Source of the DNA: a virus
Reading direction: 5' to 3' (one strand)
IMG/VR virus record: IMGVR_UViG_3300005613_000084
Coordinates: 1 to 53,099 of that record
DNA length: 53,099 nt
Both the position numbers and the translations under genes were made by a program. The notes beneath the pieces are model-generated. The model was not told where the DNA came from. It worked only from the letters and a program-made list of their open reading frames with translations, and ran no database searches. Positions 3,101-53,099 of the stretch are shown here, in pieces (position 1 is the stretch's first letter; each line of letters opens with the position of its first letter).

Positions 3101-3575
3101 GAGGATGCGCGAGGCTAAAGAGCCGGCTGCCCAGGCTGCCGTTGCGAGTGGCCTCGGAATCACGTCTGCTCCCGCATATATCACGCGAAGCAAGGCGCAG
3201 AAACTCGCTATGAAGTATCTCATTGCGAAGATACCGGCCGGCTCCCGCACGCAAGAGAAAGCAGAGAAGAGCAAAAGGCGAAAGGGGCTCGTTCGCCAAC
3301 TGAGGGCCGGAGAGGAAGTTGCGCCAGAAGAGTTTGAGGGTCTCACTCTCACGGAACGGAAAGGAATCGTTGCGGAATCACGATTACAGCCGCTTGCCGC
3401 GTCAGTCAAGAGGCTGTCGTTACGTGAGGCGCTTGATGTGTACCTGCAAAGTACGCCAGAAGAGCGTAAACAACTGTGGCCAATTGTTGTGGCGAAGCGC
3501 CAGAACGCAAGAGCGATAGACCAAGAGGTAGCTAAATACTACCTTGAAGTCGCAAAACTGTCGAAGACGTTGTAA
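1..3575 (+). CDS. Giant internal virion (ejection) protein with zinc-protease motif, C-terminal part
   Basis: This is the continuation of the gene that starts at GTG 52187; joined over the terminal repeat the protein is 1454 residues. Visible parts: an Ala/Gly-rich hydrophobic N-terminal stretch (about residues 140-230), an Ala/Glu/Pro-rich linker (about 364-428), and a zincin-type motif HEIGH at 761-765, followed some 58 residues later by a Glu in EAWL that could be the third zinc ligand. The rest has no domain I recognise. Proteins above 1000 residues at the end of a podovirus virion operon are typically internal core/ejection proteins, some carrying an enzyme that opens the cell wall or cleaves proteins. 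By position and size that is the likely role here; the protease activity is inferred from the motif only. The next gene follows 25 bases after the stop, behind its own ribosome site. Confidence 0.8.
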   Translation, partial: VDPEALTKDSLRQVVNETTVQTVIATAFAGSPGVMRQMSRAKIERVTQEIMTYAREGKVPSRKTWKKWGLAPEYGESRKQRKAFTEQLTGALQTPLEARVVQTAQEPAGAPEAVSEPQTAADRAVMDQGLPVGHPAVQEAAAAPAKKPAVTPQEEAVEPAAEPAKVFQQRALGIAGNLTTEAMESGGPLPADGIHAPETTKPGKKGKSPVASKARAAAADLVSIASPVAAGGWQARRTGHIMREGMARAAQWDEVSKHSLDAIERSFYKMSPDERLEFIDRMESGKEQPGELNVVAKVIRSELDAARKRVQEVGKLEKFNEDYFPHLWKSSPEADTVLGQVFQKTYRKSGFLRKRTIPTVKEGREAGLELVTDNPAELAFMRIHHMNEYVAKTEAMSLLKQHGLAVFVPASLEKDYLLPGFKFVDDPAFLVQTSADTTVTEVFDKLLVDQLTSVANSLGVSTKRVTKLESFGETVTTKKGRRIIKTRVGTPVATLAHEIGHNIGEIYGLYDYMVESGGKAVQQELDALSSLRTERSVPGTEGFVEYSKTPAEQEAVILEAWLVSPEKMREVAPKVTGMWQDFLAANEPLSPLLMLDRSLVLGTQEQTIEQPGVRVIGRWAMPEKVAGMIENQLSPGLRRNPNTAVRTLYNTARMYGNAMNQASLSLSAFHGINVTTDAVATQTGVSILKLLRGDLPSAAAEFVTAPMAGFKSLWRGNKLIKAMRGDLSKIKNQKLADTIEDVIRAGGRASMDARYHNQSIRALRNTFYNLKFGGPIKKVSSAIKLPVQSVFATLEAAAIPIMEYMVPRLKLGTFQYLAGDIYSRSANLSEEQITEQLTQAWDSVDNRLGQLPYDNLFWNQYVKDVSMLAVRSVGWNLGSIREYGGAVTDIFTAKERIAMGGELVSGKQAYVMGAAVSYATLGAVLTYLFTGDRPKELKDYFFPPTGKQNPDGSAERIGLPTYSRDVYSWTHDPARTAHHKVHPMWGTFIDMWANEDYYGTEIRNADDPLMAQLINSVQHVGEAYIPFSVRNYMRMREAKEPAAQAAVASGLGITSAPAYITRSKAQKLAMKYLIAKIPAGSRTQEKAEKSKRRKGLVRQLRAGEEVAPEEFEGLTLTERKGIVAESRLQPLAASVKRLSLREALDVYLQSTPEERKQLWPIVVAKRQNARAIDQEVAKYYLEVAKLSKTL

Positions 3576-3600
3576 CTACTTTTTCCTAGGAGATGCATCT

Positions 3601-4026
3601 ATGGGACTGCTGCAATTGCTTTCGTTACTGAGACGTGTGCCCGTTCGTGATCTGATTGATTTCCCTGACGACCTGAGCGATAGTGAGGACGTTCGTCGTT
3701 GGACTATGGCGGCCATTGAGTTGGGCGTCGTGCTGGCTGAGCGCACCGTGATTGAGGTCGACGACACGATCTTCGATTTCGCTGCTGACCTGGTTGGTAA
3801 TGACGATTCGTGGGCTTTGATTCACGGTGTCGTGTTGGCGGTCATTGAGGGGCGATTCACGCCCGAGCAGAGCCTTCAGTGTTCGCAGGAGCTTCAGGAG
3901 GTTACCGAGTGCGCATTCAATCCGATGATGATCTTCGCAATCATCCAGGCTGTCCAGGCTGGGATTAAGATTCTGAAGGCGATCCGCGCGGCTCGTCAGC
4001 AGCGCCAAATTTCGCTTGCCGTGTAG
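3601..4026 (+). CDS. Hypothetical virion-operon protein, 141 aa
   Basis: I do not recognise this protein. Start ATG 3601 was chosen because AGGAG lies about ten bases upstream; earlier in-frame codons would run into the preceding gene. The N-terminal half is acidic (DLIDFPDDLSDSEDVRRW). The C-terminal third contains an amphipathic/hydrophobic helix (FNPMMIFAIIQAVQAGIKIL) ending in a basic tail (RAARQQRQ), compatible with membrane or DNA contact. It lies between the giant ejection protein and the lipoprotein protease, so a virion or lysis role is possible. Confidence 0.7.
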   Translation: MGLLQLLSLLRRVPVRDLIDFPDDLSDSEDVRRWTMAAIELGVVLAERTVIEVDDTIFDFAADLVGNDDSWALIHGVVLAVIEGRFTPEQSLQCSQELQEVTECAFNPMMIFAIIQAVQAGIKILKAIRAARQQRQISLAV

Positions 4027-11342: not shown

Positions 11343-11453
11343 GTGAACACTATCACCTCTGAATTCGGTGCTCTTATGGTGTTATTTGGAATACTCGAAT
11401 TCGCGATTGGCGCAATCGCTGGCTGGTGTTTGAGAGGACTTCATGGGCGGTGA
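11343..11453 (+). CDS. Tiny membrane protein, 36 aa
   Basis: GTG 11343 has a near-perfect TAGGAGGT ribosome site, and the stop overlaps the next start by eleven bases. The protein is one transmembrane helix (FGALMVLFGILEFAIGAIAGW) with a short basic tail (RGLHGR). No family recognised; it was identified from ribosome site and coupling. Confidence 0.6.
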   Translation: MNTITSEFGALMVLFGILEFAIGAIAGWCLRGLHGR

Positions 11454-12756
11454 TATCGCAGACGTACAGGGTGATTCGCAGACCGTTCAGGCGATTTTCG
11501 CCCACTACAAACAACAGGGCGATAACGGCTACATGAGCCGTACAGTCCCCGCGTCGATGCTCGGGCATCCGTGCGAACGATACCTCTGGTATTGCTATCG
11601 GCAGTGCTGTAAACCGGACTTTGACGGTCGGATGTACCGCTTGTTCGAGACTGGCCAGCGGGAAGAGGAACGGATCGCCGCGGACCTTCGCGCGATTGGG
11701 TGTACGGTCCACGTTGAGGATGAGCAGACCAAGAGGCAATTCTTGGTGACTGAGTTCGGCGGGCACCTGAAAGGCTACCTGGACGGCTGTGTCCTCGGGC
11801 TCCCGGAGGCACCGAAGACCTGGCATGTCCTGGAAATGAAAACACACAACGCCAAGTCGTTCCGGGATCTGTGCCGGCAGGGCGTCCGGAAATCACAGCC
11901 GAAGCACGCTGCGCAATGTGCTATTTACATGCACCTAACCGGCATGAAGCGAGCCTTGTATTTTGCGACCTGCAAGGATAACGACGCGATCTACATAGAG
12001 AGGCTTCGATACGACAAAAGCGAGGCGAAGGTTTTAATGGCTAAGGCGCAAGGGGTCATTGAATCAGTAACCCCGCCTTTCCGGCTTTCCGACCGGCCCG
12101 ACTACTATGAATGCCGTTGGTGTGATGCGCACGATATCTGCCATGGCACTGGCGAATTTGCGCTGCCCGTTCCGAAACTCTCTTGCCGGCACTGTTGCCA
12201 CGCTACGCCAGTAGTAACTGGCGACGGCGGGCAATGGGAGTGTGAACGGCATCACGTGCGCATCAACACCGATAGCCCATGTAGCGACCATTTGACGCTC
12301 CCCGTACTCCTCCCTTTCGCGGAGCCGGGAATCTATGACGAAGACGAGCGGGAACGAGAGTCGATTGAATTCCGAAACGCAGACGGAACCACTTGGAAGC
12401 ACGGCAATGCCTCGGGCTGTATCACAAGCCACGCCCTTATGGGAATGCCGGCCAGTCTGACTGGTAATGAGACCGTCAGTGCTGCTGGTGACCTCTTCGG
12501 TGCTCGGATTACCGGCTACGTTGCCGACGATATTCTCGCTCGTTATCCAGAGGGAGACTCACGGGTTATTTGGAAGGGGCGGGCCGGTGAATTCATGGAT
12601 GCCTGGAATGGAATCTACCAAGAGAAGTTCGCTGAACTGAAACCGATCGCCAGATGCGACCTCGCGGAGGCGACTGTCTGTGAGTACGAGGGCGGACGGA
12701 TCGCAATCCTTTGGGAAGGTGGAAAGCTGGCTGAGATTCGCGAGGGGGTTGAGTGA
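11443..12756 (+). CDS. PD-(D/E)XK nuclease, RecB/Cas4-like
   Basis: 437 residues. GHPCERYLWY near residue 43, then GYLDG (Asp of the nuclease motif, about 108) and HVLEMKTHN (E-x-K, about 125-131) give the PD-(D/E)XK core; QCAIYMHLTGMKRALYF is the following helix-strand. Downstream Cys pairs (CRWCDAHDIC, SCRHCCHA) could hold an iron-sulphur or zinc cluster as in Cas4/AddB-type nucleases. The C-terminal 150 residues are not recognised. Likely an exonuclease producing single strands for the annealing protein. Stops directly before the helicase start. Confidence 0.82.
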   Translation: MGGDIADVQGDSQTVQAIFAHYKQQGDNGYMSRTVPASMLGHPCERYLWYCYRQCCKPDFDGRMYRLFETGQREEERIAADLRAIGCTVHVEDEQTKRQFLVTEFGGHLKGYLDGCVLGLPEAPKTWHVLEMKTHNAKSFRDLCRQGVRKSQPKHAAQCAIYMHLTGMKRALYFATCKDNDAIYIERLRYDKSEAKVLMAKAQGVIESVTPPFRLSDRPDYYECRWCDAHDICHGTGEFALPVPKLSCRHCCHATPVVTGDGGQWECERHHVRINTDSPCSDHLTLPVLLPFAEPGIYDEDERERESIEFRNADGTTWKHGNASGCITSHALMGMPASLTGNETVSAAGDLFGARITGYVADDILARYPEGDSRVIWKGRAGEFMDAWNGIYQEKFAELKPIARCDLAEATVCEYEGGRIAILWEGGKLAEIREGVE

Positions 12757-14370
12757 GTGGAGCCTCGCCCCTACCAGAACGAATGCCTCGCGGCGCTGGA
12801 CAATCACATCTGCACGGCTGAGACGAACCCGTGTGTTGTGATGCCGACTGGCTCCGGTAAGTCCCCATGTATCGCGTGGATCATCCAGAAATGGAAAACG
12901 GAGTCACCGTGGTTCCGTTGCGTGATTCTCGCGCATCGGAAAGAGCTAATCGAGCAGAACGCCAAGGCGCTGGAGGCGATTGCCCCCGAGCTTAATGTGG
13001 GTATTTTCTCGGCAGCACTAAAACGTCGAGATTGGGAGGCTTCCGTTCTTTATGCCTCTATTGATTCCATCTTTTGGCGGGCAGGCGATTTTACGCCCTG
13101 GGACGTAATCATGGTCGACGAAGCCCACAGAATACCATTGAAAGGCGAGGGGAAGTACCGGCGATTCATTCAGGAGAGCCGGCAATGGAACGATAGGCTC
13201 CGCGTTGTCGGTTGGACTGCAACGCCCTTTCGTCTTGACGGCGGGCGGATTTGCCATCGCGATCATATCCTGAATGAAGTGTGCTATGAAGCCAAGGTGA
13301 CGGACCTCATTAAACAAGGCTTCCTCTGTAATTTGCGGTCCAAGGTAGGGGAGGCACAGCCGGACTTATCGAGCGCCAAGAAAGCCTGCGGAGACTACAC
13401 GATCAAGAGTCTCGCGGAGATTACGAATCGCGATCAGATCGTTACCGAGGCCGTGACGGAAGCTGTACGGCTCATCGGAGCCGAGAACCGTAAGGCCGTG
13501 ATTTTCTTCTGTGTCGATGTCGCGCATTGCGAGCGGGTGAGCGCTGAGCTTCAAAAACACAGAATCTACGCGCCTGTTGTGACTGCTAAAACGAAACAAC
13601 GCGATCGCGACAGAATCGTCAGAGATTTTAAGGCCCGGAAAATCAACGCCCTGTGTAATGTCAATGTTTATACAGAAGGATTCGATGCGCGGCACGTCGA
13701 CTGCATTGTGCTCCTGCGCCCGACTCTCTCGGCGGGGCTTTACTCACAGATGGTAGGTCGCGGGCTGCGAATTCACGACGACAAGACGGATTGTCTTGTG
13801 CTGGACTTCGGAGGCTGTATTGAGCAACACGGCCCGATAGATCTCCTGGACGGCGAGCCCGTGGTGATGGCAACATGCGGCAACTGCCGTGAGTCGTTCT
13901 CTCGTGCCGCGCGAGTCTGCCCGCAGTGCGGTTGGGAAATTCCGAAACAAGAGATCGAACGTCTAGAGGGCGAGGAACGGGAACGGCGCTTACACGGCAA
14001 GCAGGCATCGGGTGAGTCTATCATCTCGACACAGCCAAAGACGCGCAAGGTCGACGCTGTATTCGTTAATCGGCATGTCAAAGCTGGCTCTCCTGATTCG
14101 ATCCGCGTGCAGTACCGCTGCGAACTGTCGATGTACCGCGAATGGATTTGCCTGGACCATGATGGGTACGCTGGCAAGAAGGCGCAACAGTGGTGGATAC
14201 AGCGCTTCGGGCGACCGAAGAACGGAATAATTACCGTCAACGAAGCCCTCGAAAACCTCTTCCTTTCGCAGGAAATCCTGGAGTGGACAAAGACTATCAC
14301 CGTTCGGTACGGCAAAAGGTATTGGGAGATCGTTGCATACAATAAACCTCTGGAAATGGAGGCTGCATAA
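12757..14370 (+). CDS. Superfamily 2 DEAD/DEAH-type helicase with zinc ribbon
   Basis: 537 residues, GTG start right after the nuclease stop. Motif I PTGSGKS (30-36), motif II VDEAH (120-124), motif III WTATPF (153-158), motif VI QMVGRGLR (331-338), then a zinc ribbon (CGNCRESFSRAARVCPQCGWE). This is the SSL2/UvsW-like layout of phage DNA helicases involved in fork remodelling and recombination. A 60-base stretch around motif VI (13732-13791) recurs in the small gene at 24912-25082. Confidence 0.92.
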   Translation: MEPRPYQNECLAALDNHICTAETNPCVVMPTGSGKSPCIAWIIQKWKTESPWFRCVILAHRKELIEQNAKALEAIAPELNVGIFSAALKRRDWEASVLYASIDSIFWRAGDFTPWDVIMVDEAHRIPLKGEGKYRRFIQESRQWNDRLRVVGWTATPFRLDGGRICHRDHILNEVCYEAKVTDLIKQGFLCNLRSKVGEAQPDLSSAKKACGDYTIKSLAEITNRDQIVTEAVTEAVRLIGAENRKAVIFFCVDVAHCERVSAELQKHRIYAPVVTAKTKQRDRDRIVRDFKARKINALCNVNVYTEGFDARHVDCIVLLRPTLSAGLYSQMVGRGLRIHDDKTDCLVLDFGGCIEQHGPIDLLDGEPVVMATCGNCRESFSRAARVCPQCGWEIPKQEIERLEGEERERRLHGKQASGESIISTQPKTRKVDAVFVNRHVKAGSPDSIRVQYRCELSMYREWICLDHDGYAGKKAQQWWIQRFGRPKNGIITVNEALENLFLSQEILEWTKTITVRYGKRYWEIVAYNKPLEMEAA

Positions 14371-14996: not shown

Positions 14997-15167
14997 ATGT
15001 CGATTGAAAATCCAAAAACGCACGCGGAATTTATTGCGCGGTGGCGCAGGATACTCGGGTGCGAGAGTTGTAAGGCCCCAGAGGCACCAATGGTATGCTG
15101 GTGTCGTGTATGCGTTCAACTGGAGAGTATGCGGAGAGAAATGCGTGCAATCATGGGTAAGCAATGA
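14997..15167 (+). CDS. Small zinc-binding-like protein, 56 aa
   Basis: ATG 14997 follows AAGGGGATGC; the stop overlaps the primase start in ATGA. CESC at about residue 22-25 and CWCRVC at about 36-41 could bind zinc; the C-terminus is a helix (LESMRREMRAIMGKQ). Translational coupling suggests a partner of the primase-polymerase. No family recognised. Confidence 0.6.
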   Translation: MSIENPKTHAEFIARWRRILGCESCKAPEAPMVCWCRVCVQLESMRREMRAIMGKQ

Positions 15168-17416
15168 ACCACTTCCTTGAAGCAGCCTTACGATATGCCG
15201 AGTTTGGTTGGCACGTCTTCCCGTGTGTGCCGAACCAAAAGGTACCCATCACAAAGCACGGCGTCAAAGACGCCACGCGAGATGCCGACCAGATTCAAGC
15301 ATGGTGGACACAGTGGCCGGCTGCGAATGTGGCTGTTGCGTGTGGCGCGGAAAGCGGCGTCTATGTGATAGATGTGGATGTGACCGCGGCCGGGAACGTG
15401 AACGGCTATGAGTCACTGAAGGAGTTTCCGGAACTCCCGGATACTGTTATCCAGAAGACGCCACGAGGTGGCTTCCACGCTTTCTATCGCACAGACAACC
15501 CGCCGGCCAACAAGAACGGCTTCCGGCCGGGGATCGACCTTCGGGGCGATGGGTACTACGTCGTGATTGCGCCGAGTATCCATCCGAATGGTGGACAGTA
15601 CGTCTGGGCTCCGGGTTGCGCTCCGGGCGAGATCGCGATCGCCAAGTACCCGGACTTCATACGCCCGCCGGCCCGTCAGCCGTCCACTAAGCCGGCCGCA
15701 CCGCTCCCGCTCCCCGTCCCAACAGGCGACAGCGCTGCGAGGATGCGCGTTGCCGAGGCGTACATCCCAACGTGCGACATAGCCGTCCAAGGGCAGGCTG
15801 GGCACAACAAGCTGTTTTGGGCGGCGCAATGTGCGGTCAACGGGATCGGGCTCTCGGATTCCGAAGCCTACGACGTTCTCACACGGCTCTTCAACCCCTT
15901 CTGTCAGCCCCCTTGGGACCTGAGTATCCCGAAAGACGAAAAGGATTTCCGCCGGAAGATCAGCGAGGCCCAGAGGAACCCGCCGGGTGACTTGCCGCAT
16001 CTCTGGGTACTCAACAATCCTGACTACGAACATCTCCGCGAGGATGCGCCCCAAGAGGCGTATGACTGGGCTGAGGCGATGCTGGCTAATCACCTGGCCG
16101 GGCAGCAGGCCGTCGAGCAGCCTCTCGTAATCACGGCTCCTGAATTCAGGCTCGACAACCCGCCTGGACTGATCGGCGAGATATGTGAATGGATCGACGC
16201 TACGTCGCTCATCAAACAACCGCTTCTCACATTGGCCTGCGCGCTGACGTTTGGTGGGGCTTTATTTGGACGAAAGATCAAGGATACACTCGGCACGCGA
16301 ACTAACCTGTACTGCATGGGGGTTGCGAATTCCTCAAGCGGCAAGAACCATGCACCTTCTCAAATTCGCAATCTCTGCACGCACTCCGGCTGCCTCGATT
16401 TACTCGGCGGGGAGTCTACTGCGTCCGACTCTGCAATCGAGGAGCGCGTTGCTTGTTCGCCTTCCACACTTTTCCTGTGGGACGAGATTGGGTTTATGCT
16501 TAAGGATATCAAGCGGGGACTTTCTCCACATCGGGCGGCTATTGTGTCGCTACTGATGCGACTCTACTCACTGTCTGGTTCAGTCTACACTGGTCGAGAG
16601 TATGCAGAAAGCGATAAGCGACGGAAGATCATCCAGCCTTGTTGCTGCCTGTATGGAAGTTCTACGCCGATCCGCTTTGCGGAGGGTATTTCTGTTGGTG
16701 AGTTAGAGGATGGCTGGCTCGCCAGATGCCTTTGCTTCAGAGCTTCCGATGATATACCGCGCAAGGTTCGCAGCACTTCAGACCAGCCGCCACCGCCGGG
16801 GCTCTGCGAGAAGGTGGCGCAATGGTTCGCGCGGCAGCCGCAGGCCACAGACGGGCATACTATCGGCGAGTTCGCAAGGTTCGATCCTATCCTTGCGTCG
16901 GCAACGGACCTACCGCCTACGCAGATCGTAGTGCCACGGACTGGCGCGGCGGAGCGGCTGTTTATTATGCTGGACGACGAAGCGCACAGCCCTGAAATTC
17001 AGGAAAGCAGGATGGGGGCACTCTGGCGCAAAGCGGAAGAAAACGCGCGGAAGGTAGCGCTGATTATCGCGGCCGGCGCGAACTACGATGCGCCAGAAAT
17101 CACAGAAGCCGTTGCGGAGTATGCCTGCCAGCTTATAAGGCACCTACTGTTGCAATTCACTGAACGCACAGCGCCCGAGATTGTTGATAATCAAATTGAA
17201 TTTGACAAACAAAAAATCTTCAGGATTATCGCAAGGCACGGCACTAGAGGGTGCGTACATCGCACAATCACAAAACAGACACAGCGCATGAATCGAAAGG
17301 GCAGGGATGCCCTGATTGCGGACATGATCGAAGCTGAGCGTATCTTGCGTGAACCAGAAGGTCGAACATTCCGATATTGGTCAGCGGAGCATTCTCCATG
17401 GACGCAGAAACCGTAA
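15164..17416 (+). CDS. Primase-polymerase (AEP) with C-terminal helicase-like domain
   Basis: 750 residues. The N-terminal 200 residues are a bifunctional DNA primase/polymerase domain: VIDVDV with Asp70 and Asp72, PRGGFHAFYR with His105, and GIDLRGDGYYVVIAPS near 125-140. The remainder (about 335-700) resembles the DUF3987/replicative-helicase-like ATPase half, with a P-loop-like GVANSSSGKNHA (386-397) and an acidic LFLWDEIGFML strand. Together it would prime and unwind at the phage origin. The GKN in place of GKS/T is a deviation. RusA follows in overlap. Confidence 0.87.
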   Translation: MNHFLEAALRYAEFGWHVFPCVPNQKVPITKHGVKDATRDADQIQAWWTQWPAANVAVACGAESGVYVIDVDVTAAGNVNGYESLKEFPELPDTVIQKTPRGGFHAFYRTDNPPANKNGFRPGIDLRGDGYYVVIAPSIHPNGGQYVWAPGCAPGEIAIAKYPDFIRPPARQPSTKPAAPLPLPVPTGDSAARMRVAEAYIPTCDIAVQGQAGHNKLFWAAQCAVNGIGLSDSEAYDVLTRLFNPFCQPPWDLSIPKDEKDFRRKISEAQRNPPGDLPHLWVLNNPDYEHLREDAPQEAYDWAEAMLANHLAGQQAVEQPLVITAPEFRLDNPPGLIGEICEWIDATSLIKQPLLTLACALTFGGALFGRKIKDTLGTRTNLYCMGVANSSSGKNHAPSQIRNLCTHSGCLDLLGGESTASDSAIEERVACSPSTLFLWDEIGFMLKDIKRGLSPHRAAIVSLLMRLYSLSGSVYTGREYAESDKRRKIIQPCCCLYGSSTPIRFAEGISVGELEDGWLARCLCFRASDDIPRKVRSTSDQPPPPGLCEKVAQWFARQPQATDGHTIGEFARFDPILASATDLPPTQIVVPRTGAAERLFIMLDDEAHSPEIQESRMGALWRKAEENARKVALIIAAGANYDAPEITEAVAEYACQLIRHLLLQFTERTAPEIVDNQIEFDKQKIFRIIARHGTRGCVHRTITKQTQRMNRKGRDALIADMIEAERILREPEGRTFRYWSAEHSPWTQKP

Positions 17417-22042: not shown

Positions 22043-22128
22043 TGGTGCGCGTTGGGCAGTTCTTGATCTGTCCTAACGCTGATTGGGCTGGGCGGTGTGG
22101 GAAACTATTCCCCCTCCGGTTCCTCTAG
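21937..22128 (+). CDS. Small zinc-ribbon protein overlapping the methyltransferase
   Basis: 63 residues. The C-terminal half (CRECSSMMVRVGQFLICPNADWAGRCGKLFPL) follows the topoisomerase-type zinc-ribbon pattern. It overlaps the methyltransferase by 106 bases in another frame and its stop lies inside the convergent SprT-like gene. The start is uncertain (ATG 21937, weak site). The zinc ribbon is the part I trust. Confidence 0.45.
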   Translation: MHPDREEQRLLFRDRKRTRPRDRKTPRTCRECSSMMVRVGQFLICPNADWAGRCGKLFPLRFL

Positions 22129-22695
22129 GTCCGGCGGATTCAACGTGGTGCCACACGGACACACCGGCAGGCCAACCTCCAACCACTTCTGCGTTGTGCG
22201 CACCGTATATCCACAGTCTGCACACTCCAATTTCTTCATGCGAGTTGTCTGTGTCTTCGGCGCGTTGCTGTAGTCTAGCTGGGCGTGCGGATACTTGCCG
22301 ATCCCTTTCGTGATTCCCTTGAGCGTGGCTTTCAGTTCGTCACTTGCTGTTGTGTCAGTCATTCTGCCCTTTAACCCCACTGCCCTGGCCAGCGCGCCGA
22401 AGCGTTTACCATGCTTCTGGTCGATCCCGACCGCGCAGTGAACCAACTCGTGAACAAGCACAGCCGCTACTTCGATTGGATCATCAAGCAGGGGGGAGAT
22501 GAAGACCTCAAAGCTCCCATCCGCACTTTGCTTACTGCACCACGCCTCCCCGATTCGTTTGCGATGCTTCGCTAAGGCTGACTTAGACGGCCAGGAGCAC
22601 GAGGCCCGGACCTTCCTGGGGACCGGCTGTCCAGCTTCACGGAATACCGGGCGAAGGGCACTAATACACTCTGATAGCCATTTCTCTCGGTTCAT
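22105..22695 (-). CDS. SprT-like zinc metalloprotease
   Basis: 196 residues. HELVH (82-86) with a third His at 95 (DQKHG) is the SprT/Spartan active site; the C-terminal zinc ribbon CADCGYTVRTTQKWLEVGLPVCPCG fits the family. Such enzymes digest DNA-protein crosslinks in cells; phage copies may clear proteins from DNA. It is the last gene of the minus-strand operon and converges on the early operon with a 24-base overlap. Start at ATG 22695 lies in the ATGA overlap with the preceding gene behind GAGAAAGG. Confidence 0.85.
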   Translation of the reverse strand: MNREKWLSECISALRPVFREAGQPVPRKVRASCSWPSKSALAKHRKRIGEAWCSKQSADGSFEVFISPLLDDPIEVAAVLVHELVHCAVGIDQKHGKRFGALARAVGLKGRMTDTTASDELKATLKGITKGIGKYPHAQLDYSNAPKTQTTRMKKLECADCGYTVRTTQKWLEVGLPVCPCGTTLNPPDLEEPEGE

Positions 22696-23123
22696 CGCTT
22701 GCCTTTCTCTGTTACTTCACGTTTCCTCTTAACCCAGCGCCGGCCACACACTGACGCTAGACACCGTTCGTTTCGCTGCGCGATACTCCTAAATAGCGGG
22801 TGATTGATTGTATCTAGCAAATACAACTCGTGCAGTTCAATCGCGATAGCGAGCAACTTCTTGCTTTCGCGCTGGGCCCGAAGCTCATACAGCAACGGCC
22901 CGCGGGTGTGAGTCGGCAGTTGGGTGTTACCACACACTGGACAGCGCTTCTCAAGCCTTCTCCGCCGCGCTTCGGCTCGCCCCTCCGCTTGCTTGGCGTT
23001 GAAACAGCGTTTACACACCGCCGCTATTCGCCGTGCACCTCCAGGCCGCGCCGGGCCCTTGAATGCAAAACACTCAATCGGCCTGGCCTCAAAACAGTTA
23101 GAGCAGATTTTGCGCTCAACCAT
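22692..23123 (-). CDS. Zinc-finger protein, 143 aa
   Basis: CSNCFEARP ... CKRCFNAKQ and CPVCGN give three Cys pairs in the same layout as the protein at 8874 (CNRCGQRKP ... CRECFNAQK ... CPTCGG), so the two are distant paralogues. The C-terminus is helical and basic (RRWVKRKREVTEKGKR). It could bind DNA or RNA. Start behind GGGGAG, overlapping the previous stop by eight bases. Confidence 0.7.
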   Translation of the reverse strand: MVERKICSNCFEARPIECFAFKGPARPGGARRIAAVCKRCFNAKQAEGRAEARRRRLEKRCPVCGNTQLPTHTRGPLLYELRAQRESKKLLAIAIELHELYLLDTINHPLFRSIAQRNERCLASVCGRRWVKRKREVTEKGKR

Positions 23124-23337: not shown

Positions 23338-23504
23338 ACAATCACCCCCCCTACCTGAAGGCGAAACGGCTCGCCTTCATGCGGGCCGCTCGTGATTACC
23401 CCACACATGAATAGTCTCCCATCTTCCTCGATAACGTCCATAATTTGCAGGGCGTAATCACCCGGGGGCATACTGTCGATGGTGTGTACTACAGGTTTAG
23501 TCAT
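23334..23504 (-). CDS. Small protein, 56 aa
   Basis: Found by reading the minus strand: ATG at 23504 follows a GAGAAAGG ribosome site in the junction repeat, and the stop overlaps the next start in ATGA. Sequence MTKPVVHTIDSMPPGDYALQ ... GRLFMCGVITSGPHEGEPFRLQV looks like a small beta-rich domain. No family recognised. Confidence 0.65.
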   Translation of the reverse strand: MTKPVVHTIDSMPPGDYALQIMDVIEEDGRLFMCGVITSGPHEGEPFRLQVGGVIV

Positions 23505-23713
23505 TGCTTGCCTTTCTCTGGTGCTTCAAGTTTCGCTAATACCCTCCGACAGCGGCTACACGTTGGTCTGCGCAGTCGTGTTTCACGTGGATTCAGAATG
23601 AAAGTTCCGCAGAGTGTGTCCAGCAGGTTTCCGTCTGCGCTCCTGTCTTGGTCGAGGGCGCAGCACCAGTCCTTTTTGCCCACTTTACGGGCGCACCACA
23701 CTTTATTACTCAT
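23501..23713 (-). CDS. Small Cys-rich protein, 70 aa
   Basis: MSNKVWCARKVGKKDWCCALD ... DTLCGTF ... TCSRCRRVL ends in EAPEKGKQ. CSRCRR and the upstream Cys residues may bind zinc. Start ATG 23713 lies in a copy of the junction repeat; the frame also extends far upstream but that stretch overlaps the previous gene and is unlikely. No family recognised. Confidence 0.65.
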   Translation of the reverse strand: MSNKVWCARKVGKKDWCCALDQDRSADGNLLDTLCGTFILNPRETRLRRPTCSRCRRVLAKLEAPEKGKQ

Positions 23714-24044
23714 TGCTTGTCTTTCTCTGGTGCTTATACTGTCTGATTCTGGCACAATTACCCGATGATTTACAATAGGTACCGTGGTAGCGCAGACCGT
23801 TGATTGCGTGAACGTCAATCGGCACGCGCACTCCGCCAAAGTTATCCCGGTACTCGCGACCGAAACATACGCTCCCTAGCCGCTCTCCAGTCCAGGTAGT
23901 TGCCCTTTGGTTCTCTTTGTCGATATAGAGAGAGTATCGGTCTGGTTTGTCGCGCAGAAACTCGTACACTTCTACGGCGCTGATTTCATCATTCGACTGG
24001 CGATCAATTCGTGCGCGAATTGCCTTATACTCGGTCTCAGTCAT
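23706..24044 (-). CDS. Hypothetical protein, 112 aa
   Basis: MTETEYKAIRARIDRQSNDEISAVEVYEFLRDKPDRYSLY ... YKSSGNCARI. Start ATG 24044 is in a junction-repeat copy. Its own 3' end lies in another copy, read in a different frame from its siblings (KHQRKTSNE instead of EAPEKGKQ). No family recognised. Confidence 0.7.
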   Translation of the reverse strand: MTETEYKAIRARIDRQSNDEISAVEVYEFLRDKPDRYSLYIDKENQRATTWTGERLGSVCFGREYRDNFGGVRVPIDVHAINGLRYHGTYCKSSGNCARIRQYKHQRKTSNE

Positions 24045-24226
24045 TGCTTGCCTTTCTCTGGTGCTTCACAGGTGACGAACCCGGCGCGGTCCTCATATTT
24101 CAGGGTGCGCTCCATTCCGCGCCGGTCACTCTCTGCTTCAGCCTGAGTGTGATACGGCCCGCAAGGCTCGACACCCTGTAAGCCGACCACCCACCAGCCG
24201 TCCGCACGTTGTTCGGCCCTGGACAT
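24041..24226 (-). CDS. Small protein, 61 aa
   Basis: GWWVVGLQGVEPCGPYHTQAEAESDRRGMERT resembles small phage proteins with a WxV...GPY-T-AEAE pattern of unknown function, a beta hairpin plus helix. Starts in the TAATG overlap with the upstream gene and ends EAPEKGKQ in a junction-repeat copy. Confidence 0.7.
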   Translation of the reverse strand: MSRAEQRADGWWVVGLQGVEPCGPYHTQAEAESDRRGMERTLKYEDRAGFVTCEAPEKGKQ

Positions 24227-24507: not shown

Positions 24508-24915
24508 TCAGCCAATGTGCAGCCGGCCATCATCGCCAACCACAACCCAACACTCGCCGAACGCCTTGCAGGCTTCCGTAAGCTTGTCGCCCACTTCACC
24601 CAACTCCCGATCCCAGAAACCGGCCCCATGGCTATGTCGCGTCAACCAGAAATCATGCCCAGCCATTTCGTCGTCTGAGAATTCGTCATTGTTGTAGTGT
24701 GCCTTTTGCAGAAGCGCTGCATTCTCGGCTTGGAACTTCCGGCAATCCGTGATTGCCCTCTTAATCGCTTCTGGCGTGAAGTCGTCAAGCCCGTAGTTGC
24801 TGTCAAGCGGTACTCCGCCTGATTCGTCTGCGTTGTCGGTCTCTGCCCATAACGCACACTCCAGGTACGCAATTGTGAATGCGCCGAGGTCAGTGGGTGT
24901 AAGGGTGTCGTTCAT
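24508..24915 (-). CDS. Hypothetical phage protein, 135 aa
   Basis: Acidic protein; the C-terminal motif DFWLTRHSHGAGFWDRELGEVGDKLTEACKAFGE ... DDGRLHI belongs to a widespread phage family of unknown function (FWLTR-GHGAGFWDR). Start ATG 24915 overlaps the upstream stop (CAATGA) in a degenerate copy of the junction repeat. Confidence 0.8.
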   Translation of the reverse strand: MNDTLTPTDLGAFTIAYLECALWAETDNADESGGVPLDSNYGLDDFTPEAIKRAITDCRKFQAENAALLQKAHYNNDEFSDDEMAGHDFWLTRHSHGAGFWDRELGEVGDKLTEACKAFGECWVVVGDDGRLHIG

Positions 24916-25082
24916 TGTTGCTTGCCTTCTGTCTTATTGTCGTGGGTTCGCAGTCCACGGCCTACCATCTGTGAGTAGAGCCCAGCACACGCACGGCAAT
25001 AATAGGTGCGCTCGCCCGACTTCCGGTTGACTACAGTGTGCCGCACGCGCGGTCGACCACAATTCACACAAACCTTTGCCAT
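24912..25082 (-). CDS. Small zinc-ribbon protein carrying a copy of helicase motif VI
   Basis: 56 residues. CVNCGRPRVRH ... YYCRAC is a zinc ribbon (Cys5, Cys8, Cys29, Cys32). From residue 33 the sequence turns into AGLYSQMVGRGLR and continues to residue 52 with 17 of 20 residues identical to helicase residues 326-345; about 50 of 60 bases agree (24927-24986 against 13732-13791). The ribosome site is the junction-repeat copy at 25080-25105. Either a fragment of the helicase gene was captured, or both descend from a helicase with an attached ribbon. Function unknown. Confidence 0.75.
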   Translation of the reverse strand: MAKVCVNCGRPRVRHTVVNRKSGERTYYCRACAGLYSQMVGRGLRTHDNKTEGKQQ

Positions 25083-25183
25083 CGTTACTTGCCTTTCTCT
25101 GGTGCTTAACGGAAACGAGTAAAATCGAGCCCCCGCCCGGGAGGCGAACCCCGGTTACGCAATTGCGGGTGAGGGGGGGCTAG

Positions 25184-43392: not shown

Positions 43393-45724
43393 AAAGAGAC
43401 GCCTCAGAGTACCGTTCCCACTGGCTGGCTTGAATCGTCGGGCCGCCTTTCGGCAACAGCCGCCGTACACGTCGCCAGACATGAGTAACGTCTGGCCGAT
43501 CGGTACATTCGAGGAGCGTATGCGCGGCGGTAGCCGGCCAGGGTTAATCACATCGCACATTACGGACCTCGGAACGAACGTGCGGATGCTGTATAACATG
43601 ACTCTCGCGCTGGGCGACGACTTCACGGCGTGGTCTGATAATTTCGCTGGCTCCTCACTGGCGGCTGCCTGGGCCCAGGCGTCGTGGGCATCAGATACGC
43701 CGGACATCCTGCCATCTGCGATGGCCTCTATCGACTATTCGACCAGCGAAGGTGAGGTAGTTCGTGATGCCCTGTCGATCGACACGACGCAGGCATACAC
43801 GGTCGAGATGTTCATCGTGCCGTGGAGCGCTGAGTTTCACGGGCAATACAGGCTCTACCTCCGCCTGGACGACACGACACCGGCTTATGCGACGGATGGA
43901 GTGCAAGTTGAACTGACTATGACAGGCTCGGATGGCTCGTGGTCGGGAACATTGAAGTCGTACACGGGTTCGGTGGCCACAACGACTGACTCGGATACCG
44001 GCACCATCACCACGCCGGCCCCGGGTTGGCTCTCGGCTGTCGTGAGCGGTAATGACGTGGACGTGTATTGGCACGGCACAAAAATCCTCTCAGGAACCGT
44101 GGATGCCCATACTGGCGCTCGTGTCGGATTCGGAATGGAGTGTACGGAGAGTGGCGGTATCTGTCTGGTTAACACGTTCAGGGTCCAGTATTTCTCGACC
44201 AGCACGATCAGCGGCTCACGCACGATGCTTGTAGCCTCGGCGGGCGGTAACCTGTATTACGAGGACACCTACGGCACTATGACGCAGGTTGTTACGGACT
44301 TGACACTGCGGAGCGATGTGGGCTTGCAATGCGTCCAGAGCGGGCAGAAGTTATACATCGCAGACTACGGGCTGCGGGTGACGGGCACTGACGGGACGGT
44401 CTCGGGGAGCGATCTGGACGCGGCTGGTGTGGCTGATTGGACGGCTCACTCCATCGACCCGCACGACGACGTGGTTGTAATCTCAAATGTAGGTGGAGAC
44501 ACTACGGCCGGTACGTACACGATTGATTCAGTTGCGGCCGGGGCACTGACGCTCACGGCAGCACCAGGCGACGGAACCTGCACGTATCGAGTGGAGCGTG
44601 CGCCGAAGGTGTACGACCCAAGTGCAGGTACACTGTCAATCCTCACAGCCGAAGGCGCACCAACTCTGCAAGTGCCGACCGGCTGTCCACTGATTGCACG
44701 GTTTTTAGATCGGATTGTCCTCGGTGGCGCAGACACAGCACCGCACGTCTGGTATATGGCTCGTCAAAGTGACGAAGATGATTGGGATTATTCGCAGACC
44801 GACAGCCAACGGGCTGTGGCCGGCACCGCTTCTGAGGCCGGGACGCCTGGCGACCCGCTGACCTCACTTATCGCGCATAGTGACGACTACCTAATTCTGG
44901 GTTGTCGTACTGAGGTTTGGATGATGCGCGGCGATCCGGTCTACGCGCCGGACCTGGATTCGGTCAGCCACACGGTCGGGATTATTGGCCCGGAGGCTCG
45001 GTGTATCGGCCCGGCCGGCGAGTTGATCTTCCTGACTTTAGACGGCTTGTATGCCCTTCCACCCGGTGGCAATTCGGAGCCGATCCCGCTGTCGCGCGAA
45101 GTGCTGCCGGAAGAGTTTGCGAACCTGCACCCCGAGACAACCACTGTACTCCTAGAATTTGATACGGAGAACCATGGTGTCCATATCTTCCTGTCGCCGG
45201 ATTCATCGAATGCTAGGACGCACTGGTGGTTTGATTGGACGAATAAAACGTTTTGGCCCATCACGCTTTCATCTAACCACGAACCTCTGGCGGCCTGCGC
45301 GGTCCAAGGCACGAATGTCGAAGATTCGGCGGTTGTATTGGGTTGTCGAGACGGCTATCTTCGACGGTTCTCTGGGCTTGCGGAAAATGACTGCGGGACG
45401 GCGTATGCGACATACGTTGAGATCGGCCCGATACCATTGGCGGCAGATGGCAAATTCGGGACGATTCTATCCCTGGACGGGGTGCTTGCCGCCGATAGTG
45501 CTGACGCAACGTGGTCGATCCATCCGGCGCAGACTTTCGAGGAGTCGACCACGGCCGCGTCAGTAGCCTCAGGGACGTGGAGCGGTGGCCTGAACGCTTC
45601 AGTACACCGGCTGGGCCGCGGGCAGGCCGCGATTCTGAAGATCACAGGGACCTCAGGCCGGGCTTGGGCGTACGAGCAGTCCACGATGGACGTGGTTGAC
45701 TCTGGCCGGCGGAGGATCGCCTGA
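43385..45724 (+). CDS. Tail tubular/nozzle-type protein, 779 aa
   Basis: N-terminal LRVPFPLAGLNRRAAFRQQPPYTSPDMSNVWP and the middle GLQCVQSGQKLYIADYG, TAEGAPTLQVPTGCPLIARFLDRIVLGGA, AVQGTNVEDSAVVLGCRDGYLRRF follow the seven-bladed/beta-rich nozzle protein of podoviruses. Residues about 70-260 look like an inserted concanavalin-type (laminin-G-like) domain. Probably forms the lower tail and receptor platform. Confidence 0.65.
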   Translation: MAKKRRLRVPFPLAGLNRRAAFRQQPPYTSPDMSNVWPIGTFEERMRGGSRPGLITSHITDLGTNVRMLYNMTLALGDDFTAWSDNFAGSSLAAAWAQASWASDTPDILPSAMASIDYSTSEGEVVRDALSIDTTQAYTVEMFIVPWSAEFHGQYRLYLRLDDTTPAYATDGVQVELTMTGSDGSWSGTLKSYTGSVATTTDSDTGTITTPAPGWLSAVVSGNDVDVYWHGTKILSGTVDAHTGARVGFGMECTESGGICLVNTFRVQYFSTSTISGSRTMLVASAGGNLYYEDTYGTMTQVVTDLTLRSDVGLQCVQSGQKLYIADYGLRVTGTDGTVSGSDLDAAGVADWTAHSIDPHDDVVVISNVGGDTTAGTYTIDSVAAGALTLTAAPGDGTCTYRVERAPKVYDPSAGTLSILTAEGAPTLQVPTGCPLIARFLDRIVLGGADTAPHVWYMARQSDEDDWDYSQTDSQRAVAGTASEAGTPGDPLTSLIAHSDDYLILGCRTEVWMMRGDPVYAPDLDSVSHTVGIIGPEARCIGPAGELIFLTLDGLYALPPGGNSEPIPLSREVLPEEFANLHPETTTVLLEFDTENHGVHIFLSPDSSNARTHWWFDWTNKTFWPITLSSNHEPLAACAVQGTNVEDSAVVLGCRDGYLRRFSGLAENDCGTAYATYVEIGPIPLAADGKFGTILSLDGVLAADSADATWSIHPAQTFEESTTAASVASGTWSGGLNASVHRLGRGQAAILKITGTSGRAWAYEQSTMDVVDSGRRRIA

Positions 45725-48700
45725 TGGTGCGTCGTCGCATTCCACATCCGAACGTACCGACTGAGGTACGCCAGGCGTTTCAGCGAGCCACAGAGGATAC
45801 TAGTATCCTCACGGACGGCGCGGCTGGCGAGGTGCTGGTTGGGGTCGGGGTCGGATCGACTCCGGCCTGGGGTACGAGCCTGACGGCCTTGACGCTGTTG
45901 ACGTGCGACAACATCACGATCAATGGCGCAGCTATCACGAGCGACACCGGGGCGATCAGTTTCGGTAATGAGAATCTGTCGACGACTGGGACGATTGGTG
46001 GTGTAAACGTCACGAGCGGGGCGGACCCTGGGCACACCCATACTGGCGCGAGTCTCAGCGGGATTGACATCTCAGCCGATACGAACCTCGCGGTTACGGC
46101 TCCGATCGTACTGACGGACGATACGCTAAGTCTGAATCAAGCGGGCATTGACCACGGTTCCTTGGGGGGACTGATGGACGACGACCACACGCAATATCTG
46201 CTTGCAGACGGCTCTCGCGACCTGACGGGCGACTTATCTGTCGATGCTGGGATTACGATCGACGGCCGTGACATTTCCGCTGACGGTGCGTTATTGGATG
46301 AGGCATACGGCTGGGGTGACCACGGGAGCGAGCCGTACTTGTGGTCGAGCGACACGGGGACGGCATGGACCGACCTCGGTACGATGTTCAGCCAGACGAA
46401 AATTTGGTGCCTGGAATACGTCGGTAGCGGAGTCGCGCTAGCTGGGACATATAACGGCGGGAAGGTGCTTCGGTCGACAGACTATGGAGCCAATTGGTCG
46501 GATCTCGGGCAGCAGGCCAGCGAGCAAAGCATCCGAAGTTTATGTAATCTCGGAAGCGGGATTGTTATTGGCGGGACCGGAGCTAACGGTAAGATTATCC
46601 GTTCGACAGACTACGGCGCAACGTGGAGCGATCTCGGGCAGCAACATAGCTGTGCGTGGATTTATTGCCTCGCGGATTGTGGTAGTGGGATTGTAATTGC
46701 GGGTACGTCGGCTAGCGGCAAGATTTTACGATCCACTGATTCTGGCGCGACGTGGAGCGATCTTGGCTCGCCGGACGGCGGCACTTCGACGCAAGTATAC
46801 TCAATCATCTATCTCGGGAGCGGAATCGCCCTAGCCGGGACGACAGGCACGGGTAAGGTCTTTCGGTCTACGGACTACGGCGCAACGTGGTCCGACCTTG
46901 GGCAGCAACACAGCGTGGATGGCGTGCGCTGCTTTGTTCACCTCGGTAGTGGCACGGTGCTGGCGGGAACTGGTAACGGCGGCAAGTTACTGAAGTCGAC
47001 GGACTGGGGAGCGAACTGGACAGACGAGGGGCAGGTTGGAGCGGAGACGAAGTTTGGCTACTTCGCTTATACGGGGACCGTGTTGATTGCCGGATTCAAC
47101 GACAGCGGGCGCGTTTACGTCTCGACTGACGATGGTGATACCTGGACGAACTTGGGAGTACAAGGCAGCGCGGCTGGTATCCTTAGCGCAGCCTACCTGG
47201 AAAATGACATTTCCGTTATCGGCACCAGAGATAATGGGAAGATTTTGCGGTCCACGGGATATTCCACTACGTCAGTAACGCCCGCGAATTGGGACGCGGC
47301 TTACGACGCGATCGGAAAGGCGGCGGTTGATTCGAGCGCGACGGCCGACTACCTGGGGGCCGCGTCGAACGATGGCGTACTGCGGACAGGCAGCGGGCTT
47401 AGTTACTACGATGGTGGGGACTACGTTACGCTGGCCCTCGACATTAATGGGCTGGCGGCGGTTTCTCCGGTGGTTGCTGCCGACGCAATACCAGTCTATG
47501 ACGAGACGGCCGGGGCTTCTCGAAAGGTTACGTTTGCGAACCTGGAGAGTTCACTCAGCCACGACTCGCTTGGTGGTTTCGTTGCGGCGGAGCATGTCTC
47601 GCTACCGAATACGATAGCTAATGTCCTCACGGACCATACTCTCGCGGCTCACACGGCGCTGGGGCTCCAGGAAGTAGTCACGGACGACACGACATACTAT
47701 ATCTCTACGACTGGGAACGATTCGACTGGTGACGGGTCAAGTGGCAGTCCGTGGGCAACGCTCGACAAGGCGCTAACTACCATTGAGTCTAAGCTTATTG
47801 CTGGTGATTCGACAGTGACGATCATCTTCAAGGATGGTACCTATACTATCGGTTCTGCCGACACACTGAACCATGTGAACGGCGACCAAATTGAAATCGA
47901 GGGCGAGAACAGCTACGACATTACACTGTCGTCAATTCAGAGTTCTGGCGGCGCAGCCGGCGCATGGTCGATCGTCCTGAATGTTAGCGATGTGTCGAAT
48001 TGCGCTGTGAATGATTATGTCCTCATTCCGTATAGCGCGGCAGGTGGTACCCGCCCTGAGACGCTGTGCGGCTGCCATAAGATCACGAATGTCGATGTTC
48101 CGAATACACGAATTACCGTAACGTCCAAGAGTCTTCATACTGCCGCGCCAAGCGGGGCCGTTGCCGGGACGATCACAGTTATCAAAACGATGCTCTCCTA
48201 TTCGGCGGCTGGCTGCGATGGGATCATTATTGACTACGGGAAATCACTCGGGAACCTGGATAAGCTCGTACTTGTTGGTGGCGCAGCGAATAACGGCATT
48301 ACAGTTCGTGCTCGTGCGTTTTTCCAAGGTGGTACGCAACTTGGAATTGATGGCTTCAGTTATGGCTTAGAAGCCCTGAATTCAACCATTGTACAAGCCG
48401 GATACCTCATTGTCTCCGGGGCAGCTTCTCGCGGCGTGAATGCCTATTGGACAGATACTACCTATCTCTCTTATGGGGTCTTCTCGGGATGTGGCGCATA
48501 CGGTGTGGTCGTCGAATCATGCAGGGCGTTGCTGTATGCTGCTGTTGCGAGTGGTAATGTGAACGGAGTCTATGGACAGATTAGCGCTACGATTTCAATG
48601 AGGACCCCAGCAAAGATCACATACAACACAACGACAGGTCTAAAAGCGTGGCTTAATTCTATCGTAGATGCCGCAACAGCAACCTGCGCCAATAATGGTA

Positions 48701-48759
48701 CGGATTTCTCTCCGGCAGCAAATACTCTTGGTAGTGTCGAGAGTTACATCAGGAACTAG
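45724..48759 (+). CDS. Tail spike with BNR-like repeats and beta-helix
   Basis: 1011 residues. About residues 210-520 carry at least six repeats of ILRSTDYGATWSDLGQQ type, the Asp-box (S-x-D-x-G-x-x-W) of sialidase/BNR propellers. From about 656 (YYISTTGNDSTGDGSSGSPWATLDKAL) a right-handed beta-helix-like region follows, as in pectate-lyase-type spikes. Suits a host-surface polysaccharide binding or cleaving spike. Overlaps the nozzle stop by one base. Confidence 0.8.
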   Translation: MVRRRIPHPNVPTEVRQAFQRATEDTSILTDGAAGEVLVGVGVGSTPAWGTSLTALTLLTCDNITINGAAITSDTGAISFGNENLSTTGTIGGVNVTSGADPGHTHTGASLSGIDISADTNLAVTAPIVLTDDTLSLNQAGIDHGSLGGLMDDDHTQYLLADGSRDLTGDLSVDAGITIDGRDISADGALLDEAYGWGDHGSEPYLWSSDTGTAWTDLGTMFSQTKIWCLEYVGSGVALAGTYNGGKVLRSTDYGANWSDLGQQASEQSIRSLCNLGSGIVIGGTGANGKIIRSTDYGATWSDLGQQHSCAWIYCLADCGSGIVIAGTSASGKILRSTDSGATWSDLGSPDGGTSTQVYSIIYLGSGIALAGTTGTGKVFRSTDYGATWSDLGQQHSVDGVRCFVHLGSGTVLAGTGNGGKLLKSTDWGANWTDEGQVGAETKFGYFAYTGTVLIAGFNDSGRVYVSTDDGDTWTNLGVQGSAAGILSAAYLENDISVIGTRDNGKILRSTGYSTTSVTPANWDAAYDAIGKAAVDSSATADYLGAASNDGVLRTGSGLSYYDGGDYVTLALDINGLAAVSPVVAADAIPVYDETAGASRKVTFANLESSLSHDSLGGFVAAEHVSLPNTIANVLTDHTLAAHTALGLQEVVTDDTTYYISTTGNDSTGDGSSGSPWATLDKALTTIESKLIAGDSTVTIIFKDGTYTIGSADTLNHVNGDQIEIEGENSYDITLSSIQSSGGAAGAWSIVLNVSDVSNCAVNDYVLIPYSAAGGTRPETLCGCHKITNVDVPNTRITVTSKSLHTAAPSGAVAGTITVIKTMLSYSAAGCDGIIIDYGKSLGNLDKLVLVGGAANNGITVRARAFFQGGTQLGIDGFSYGLEALNSTIVQAGYLIVSGAASRGVNAYWTDTTYLSYGVFSGCGAYGVVVESCRALLYAAVASGNVNGVYGQISATISMRTPAKITYNTTTGLKAWLNSIVDAATATCANNGTDFSPAANTLGSVESYIRN

Positions 48760-52197: not shown

Positions 52198-53099
52198 CCT
52201 TGATGTTCTGAAGTTCGCTCGTCAATATCGCGATGAAGCGCCCGCGGTACGCAGGGGTGGCCAGGTCGATCCTAGCTTAATTGAGTTTGGTCGTAATCTG
52301 AGTACGCAACTTCATCAAAAGCAACCGCAACCGGAGCGCCAAGAGTTGACGGAAGCGGAGCGCCGTCAGTCGATGCAAATCATCGAGCGCGAGAGACTGC
52401 TGGCGCAGGCCAGTAAGACGCTTGGCGAATCGAATCTACCTGGAGTCAAGGCGTATGCGATCCAGGCCGGCGGTGACCTTACTGCGCTAGGTGCTCGGCT
52501 GATCGGTAAAGATGAGTATGCCGATCGGATGAATCGCTTCACTGACGCTATCGAGGAAGTACAGCGTAAGCGTGAGCGCGGCGGAATCGTTCCTGACGTG
52601 ATTCAGAGTGGTGTGCGTGGGGCTGGGCGTTCGCTTACGACAATGGGGGCAGCCGGAATGGTTGGTGGTCCAGCCGCAGCGATCGCAGCCGCTTCCACTC
52701 AAGAGGCGAACCGAGCCATCACTGAGGGGCGGGACGCCGGACTGAAGGGCACTAAACTGGCCAGCTATGCGGTCGGCCAGGGCGTCATTGAGGGGGTTCC
52801 GGCTGCTGTTATGCAGCGAATGGGCCTTGGTGGCGTGGAGTCTATGGTTGCCGGCAAGCAGGCCGTGGCGAGTGGCGTTCGTGAAGGGCTGAAGCGGATA
52901 GGGATGGCAATCGCGCAGGAAGTCCCAGAAGAGCTTGTGACTGAGATCAGTCATAGCGTAGCTGCGAAGGTGGCTGATGTTGATCCGGAGGCTTTAACTA
53001 AGGATTCTCTTCGCCAGGTAGTCAACGAGACGACGGTCCAGACCGTTATTGCCACGGCTTTTGCTGGGTCTCCCGGGGTCATGCGGCAGATGAGTCGTG
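52187..53099 (+). CDS. Giant internal virion protein, N-terminal part (continues at base 1)
   Basis: GTG 52187 overlaps the end of the preceding gene by 11 bases. Reads on into base 1 of the window and ends at 3575; 1454 residues in all. This part has a charged N-terminus (DVLKFARQYRDEAPAVRRGG), a helical region, and a Gly/Ala stretch with membrane-active character (GAAGMVGGPAAAIAAAS). The start is weak (GTG), the closest Shine-Dalgarno being GGGAGAGCAAG, so translation probably depends on coupling. Confidence 0.8.
   Translation, partial: MPIDLDVLKFARQYRDEAPAVRRGGQVDPSLIEFGRNLSTQLHQKQPQPERQELTEAERRQSMQIIERERLLAQASKTLGESNLPGVKAYAIQAGGDLTALGARLIGKDEYADRMNRFTDAIEEVQRKRERGGIVPDVIQSGVRGAGRSLTTMGAAGMVGGPAAAIAAASTQEANRAITEGRDAGLKGTKLASYAVGQGVIEGVPAAVMQRMGLGGVESMVAGKQAVASGVREGLKRIGMAIAQEVPEELVTEISHSVAAKVADVDPEALTKDSLRQVVNETTVQTVIATAFAGSPGVMRQMSR
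52977..53099. repeat. Terminal direct repeat (copy of 1-123)
   Basis: Identical to the first 123 bases; lies inside the giant virion gene, so it marks circular closure of the assembly rather than a gene boundary. Confidence 0.95.

Follow-up and report, generated by a model that had tools for sequence, protein, structure and literature searches.

In superfamily 2 (SF2) helicases, motif VI acts in cis within RecA-like domain 2. In RadD (YejH) of Escherichia coli, a member of this superfamily, motif VI corresponds to residues 336-343, with Arg343 serving as its arginine finger (PMC9821108). Free copies of an SF2 motif VI have been described for NS3 helicases, where, as summarized in a passage of PMC3825274 (citing Borowski 2008; its reference 55), they block unwinding in vitro and leave the NTPase unaffected. 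The inhibitors described in that passage are synthetic 14-aa peptides and not natural fusions, and the inhibition concerns NS3-type viral helicases only. As for repeated sequences at gene starts, Cluster K mycobacteriophages carry a short repeat (SAS/ESAS) by the starts of many of their genes, and some of these copies are preceded by an inverted repeat (PMC3203893). Among small phage proteins, phrog_21340 comprises proteins of 50 aa whose function is unassigned.

The window (the whole stretch of DNA analysed, 53,099 nucleotides) carries at 24912-25082 on the minus strand a small, apparently chimeric gene. Its 56-residue product (MAKVCVNCGRPRVRHTVVNRKSGERTYYCRACAGLYSQMVGRGLRTHDNKTEGKQQ, pI 10.2) consists of a putative zinc-ribbon or treble-clef-like half with CxxC-x20-CxxC spacing (residues 1-32, 24987-25082) and of a segment matching a helicase in both DNA and protein (AGLYSQMVGRGLRTHDNKTE, residues 33-52, 24927-24986). 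This segment aligned without gaps to residues 326-345 (AGLYSQMVGRGLRIHDDKTD, 13732-13791) of the RadD-like SF2 DNA helicase encoded at 12757-14370 on the plus strand, with 17 of 20 residues and 49 of 60 bases identical. The open reading frame, its translation, its coordinates and the residue match were all as reported in the initial annotation, whose 'about 50 of 60 bases' comes to 49 by alignment, and the coordinates bear out its statement that the copy lies on the opposite strand, 11 kb from the helicase.

When the genome was searched against itself by BLAST, the two genes gave a match of 59 bp with 83% identity (E 4e-10). Among all gap-free 60-mers of the genome on both strands, this was the only inverted pair with at least 45 of 60 identities, and the direct pairs at that threshold were confined to the internal repeats of one long gene at 46.4-46.9 kb. 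The edges of the match are sharp on both sides, and the segment alone was recognised by the RadD model NF053632 at the equivalent positions (329-348, E 0.005). The similarity is real and far above chance. The copied segment contains the complete motif VI (QMVGRGLR in the helicase), including the arginine-finger position that the initial annotation had assigned to it: Arg343 of E. coli RadD corresponds by alignment to R338 of the helicase and R45 of the small protein. All seven motif residues that are invariant in 44 distinct helicase relatives (Q, V, G, R, G, L, R) are kept in the small protein, and its three amino-acid differences (T46, N49 and E52) fall at positions variable among helicases, with T and N seen at positions 46 and 49, respectively, in other helicases. 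A template/variable repeat pair of a diversity-generating retroelement was rejected as an explanation of the match, since the copy differs at G, T and C positions and not at template adenines only.

The helicase (537 aa) was assigned to phrog_16 (DNA helicase) and carries, in this order, Walker A, DEAH and motif VI; it is homologous to RadD across both RecA-like domains. PDB 6jde was aligned to its residues 4-354 (E 5.5e-52), including GSGKS, VDEAH, TATPFR and QMVGRGLR. Because its match to NF053632 (E 1.5e-79) scored 268 bits against an equivalog cut-off of 720, the helicase is, as judged from profiles, a phage relative of RadD (phrog_16) and not RadD itself. The RadD family represents the same gene type and segment as the donor, whereas the small protein has no helicase domain; it was rejected as a helicase, since ATPase motifs I and II are absent from its 56 residues and the motif VI segment is its sole helicase part. 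The helicase ends in a CxxC...CxxC ribbon of its own (CGNC-x10-CPQC), and homology of the small ribbon to it was also rejected, because the spacing is different and self-comparison gave no match. Immediately upstream of the helicase gene lies a Cas4-domain exonuclease (phrog_1990, 11443-12756), and a Prim-Pol type primase follows both at 15164-17416; a pair of paralogous genes (10912-11331/14459-14809) flanks the exonuclease and helicase genes.

The ribbon half of the small protein is orthologous to MAKTCDKCGGPRVRYTVVNQKTGYRTRYCRAC of G004, a syntenic relative (52,362-bp contig) whose helicase is 69% identical. Both CxxC pairs, 20 residues apart, are kept in this orthologue, and the fused protein and the unfused G004 form are alike strongly basic (pI ~10.2). 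The comparison of the two ribbon halves gave dN 0.20 and dS 1.88 (33 codons), which marks the ribbon half as a genuine gene on which purifying selection acts. In an AF2 model of the small protein, built on a two-sequence alignment (mean pLDDT 73), strands were predicted at residues 13-18 and 25-29 and a helix at residues 30-40, which crosses the junction, reaching from the second pair of cysteines into the graft. Foldseek with this model gave no matches at E<0.001, Pfam and family-model searches of the small protein gave none above cut-off, and its GATA-finger matches were weak (E 0.004). The profile of phrog_21340 matched the fused protein weakly (E 0.21) and the unfused G004 orthologue at E 3e-4, the latter over residues 1-20 only, less than half of the protein. 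The term 'zinc ribbon', used in the initial annotation, suits the CxxC-x20-CxxC half reasonably well, zinc binding there being putative, although all family models remained below cut-off.

The GATA-finger matches could be taken to mean that the likeness to motif VI arose by chance or convergence, from a basic helix following the last CxxC as in the Gly-Leu-Tyr helix of GATA-type fingers, and a Tyr indeed stands at the equivalent place after the last CxxC in the unfused orthologue. However, the identity of 49/60 bases includes silent positions, and no inverted match elsewhere in the genome is better (E 4e-10), which contradicts chance and convergence alike and makes this origin extremely improbable.

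The ribbon gene of G004 (MAKTCDKCGGPRVRYTVVNQKTGYRTRYCRACARQYKASMKGK and stop, 43 aa) ends in CRACARQYKASMKGK and has no motif VI segment. It shares with the window gene the CxxC...CxxC half, the start and the downstream gene, and its leader is recognisably similar (loci L069/L094). The downstream gene in the window (24508-24915, minus strand, 135 aa, phrog_1915, function unassigned), whose start overlaps the small-gene stop, is 72% identical in G004 and stands next to the ribbon gene there too. Neither the ribbon gene nor its downstream gene was detected in G010 and G003, whose helicases are both 84% identical to that of the window and which gave equal identities throughout the compared region. 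When viral_contigs was searched with a protein scan, an alignment scan and a pair of DNA patterns, ribbon homologues were found in G004 only; a second match, in G017 (L087), was rejected because it was weak and lay in a frame overlapping a long ORF, and L092, flagged by one of these searches, has no listed ORF of ribbon type.

A fusion of ribbon and motif VI was found in none of 17 and 20 contigs (overlapping sets) bearing the helicase or neighbour genes, where all confident motif VI matches lay in frames of more than 500 codons, and every motif VI match in the fetched helicase loci was within a long helicase ORF. A DNA pattern combining CxxC, the same spacing and QMVGRG had no match in viral_contigs and 8 matches in 84,980 species genomes (genome_contigs), none of them a small gene with QMVGRGLR behind a ribbon; these collections may omit records very near the window, such that identical sister phages could escape detection. 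A tblastn search of phages and plasmids yielded nothing apart from helicases and weakly matching CxxC proteins from haloviruses. Small proteins combining a zinc ribbon with QMVGRGLR, which the initial annotation had proposed to look for in other phages, were accordingly not found in this set, and the sole homologue, that of G004, lacks the motif VI segment, an observation that the same annotation had named as one that would refute its reading. A literature search of partial coverage returned no described ribbon/motif VI fusion or phage gene-fragment capture of such design.

By aligning the window and G004 loci with MAFFT, the difference between them was located to about 46 extra bases in the window gene, between TAY and AAGGCAAGC. 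The latter is the core of a ribosome-binding-site (RBS) cassette, AAGCACCAGAGAAAGGCAAGCAATGA, of 26-34 bases, which is present at five gene starts of the operon (all on the minus strand: 25082-25115 upstream of the small gene, as AAGCACCAGAGAAAGGCAAGTAACG, and 24041-24074, 23710-23743, 23501-23534 and 22692-22725) and which has two roles, as the RBS for the following gene and as coding sequence for the last codons (EKGKQ and stop) of several genes before it. A variant cassette, AAGGCAAGCAACAATGA (24912-24928, minus strand), forms the tail codons of the small gene and the right edge of the inserted piece, and the TGA stop within it overlaps the ATG of the next gene (ATGA). Since the extra bases end at the cassette core, the insertion abuts a repeated, apparently shuffled sequence. 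The helicase match consists of the extra bases and of GCTGGGCTCTAC just before them, a stretch of partial agreement (GGC..TA) between G004 and the helicase, and therefore the left crossover has short homology. The insert of 46 also shifts the cassette reading frame relative to G004. We infer from these junctions that the cassette is the seat of recombination. Comparable cassette repetition was not found in G004 and G010, which contained scattered degenerate forms only. The cassette resembles SAS/ESAS in being a short repeat at gene starts and in having an inverted repeat ahead of its copy at the small gene, but it differs in its sequence, in having 5 copies only, all in one operon, and in also coding for the tail of the upstream gene.

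Since the record is a contig of an uncultured virus, a metagenome assembly artefact joining two sequences has to be considered as a source of the junction. However, 11 of the 60 positions in the inserted piece are unlike the own helicase, the frame around the insert is intact and both flanks can still be aligned with G004, and we regard such an artefact as very unlikely.

The leader of the small gene contains a G+C-rich inverted repeat (GCCCCC...CCGGGGTTCGCCTCCCGGG...GGGGGC, 25126-25181, minus strand), which is partly kept in G004; compared with shuffled sequences, this leader hairpin had no extra stability (z -0.8). A G+C-rich inverted repeat GCCCCG..AACCGGG-TTCGC-CCGG..CGGGGC, often followed by CTTGTTTCC and a candidate terminator, attenuator or recombination site, was observed in three related phages, where it lies in the leaders of several genes of the operon (25126-25181, minus, in the window; ~3137-3185 and ~3590-3638, minus, in L094; ~530-580 in L097). 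The accessory operon of the small gene also encodes an SprT-like protein (HELVH, own zinc ribbon, phrog_6361) at 22105-22695 (minus strand).

With regard to the donor, the copy shares 49 of 60 nt with the own helicase, 47 with each of the G010 and G001 helicases and 45 with that of G004. The codon GTA and the residues HD..KT are common to the copy and the own helicase only and do not occur in the G010 and G004 helicases, and because of these shared features the donor would lie in or near the own lineage after its split from G010 and G004; it may have been the helicase of the own lineage at an earlier time, or that of an unsampled close relative. These features also bear on an alternative history, in which the fusion is ancestral, the copy having been kept since the common ancestor, and the segment was lost in G004. 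The divergence between the copy and the own helicase (49/60) is about that between sister helicases (52/60 for own and G010, 49/60 for own and G001), and the core shows five synonymous and no amino-acid differences, both of which fit an ancestral fusion. On the other hand, GTA and HD..KT point to a donor after the split, and in G004 the ribbon tail is directly continued by the cassette, as expected of a plain unfused gene, such that an ancestral fusion seems unlikely to us. As the syntenic orthologue has no motif VI segment, addition of the segment is the probable direction and loss in G004 the less likely one, a direction weakened by the number of known unfused orthologues, which is one.

The five synonymous differences lie within 13-residue cores, and if all of them had arisen on an unconstrained copy, zero amino-acid change would be expected about 0.6% of the time. 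Four of the five synonymous copy bases are also present in a sister helicase, perhaps leaving only one that arose on the copy, and the argument for selection from the unchanged core lapses for this reason; the motif VI core could be under selection in the copy.

We consider it likely that the small gene is a lineage-specific chimera made by illegitimate recombination at the cassette edge, probably in a one-off event, and that no action on the helicase is required to account for it. Its ancestor would have been a gene for a short basic zinc-finger protein (43 aa in G004), into which ~46-60 bp of a RadD-type helicase gene, of the own helicase lineage or a close relative's, were inserted by short-homology (illegitimate) recombination at the edge of the repeated RBS cassette. 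Where the ancestor had a short basic tail behind its last pair of cysteines, the graft would have put a helix containing arginines, the open frame being maintained through the graft and ending in the ATGA overlap with the next gene. The fused protein most likely keeps the role of the unfused one, as an accessory zinc-finger protein binding nucleic acid or a partner via its finger, and the graft may be either tolerated or a mild modification of its C-terminal helix. Events of this kind, in which illegitimate recombination creates small chimeric genes within the mosaic operons of phages, are known; the combination of ribbon and motif VI itself appears new.

The initial annotation had offered two readings of the copy, gene capture and inhibition or regulation of the helicase; the unfused syntenic orthologue supports the former well, and the latter is not borne out by a single unconserved fusion in another operon. 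In the regulatory reading, the ribbon would display motif VI as a free helix, and the phage RadD-like helicase (or a host RadD, or its DNA) would be bound by this helix and thereby inhibited or modulated. All invariant residues of motif VI are present, R45 aligns with the RadD arginine finger, the core residues are unaltered despite synonymous changes, and the NS3 peptides described in the passage introduced above give a precedent for inhibition of unwinding. Nevertheless, the fusion is not conserved, being absent from the G004 orthologue and without a second instance among the contigs searched, motif VI of SF2 helicases has its role in cis, as a part of RecA-like domain 2, and the small gene lies in an accessory operon 11 kb from the helicase on the opposite strand. 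On this comparison, a regulatory action on the helicase is conceivable but unsupported, and we hold such a decoy to be improbable; that the tiny zinc-finger protein has turned into a dedicated modulator of the RadD-like helicase or host RadD via a working motif VI is, in our estimate, quite improbable. If true, such a modulator would parallel, in nature, the synthetic inhibitor peptides that copy motif VI, and if the small protein binds the helicase, it would be, to our knowledge, the first natural motif VI decoy. As a recombination graft, the locus would be a clear example, unfused counterpart included, of phages building chimeric small proteins, in which a few dozen bases of a conserved enzyme can land beside a repeated ribosome-binding cassette with the frame left open. 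It also suggests caution, as a famous enzyme motif within a tiny protein can be a recombination scar and not a regulator.

Rfam and tRNA scans of the whole window gave no matches. Besides the pair around the exonuclease and helicase genes, paralogous pairs were seen at 39739-40041/40045-40389, 27341-27763/27765-28118 and 8874-9284/22692-23123, the identities of all these pairs being 31-55%. The internal direct repeats of the long gene (protein at 45724-48759) lie at 46421-46915 and are ~100 bases long and 74% alike. Finally, positions 1-123 and 52977-53099 are identical, and this 123-base terminal identity, equal in length to that in G010, most likely reflects the k-mer overlap left by the assembler when a genome is circular or terminally redundant, and not a biological repeat.
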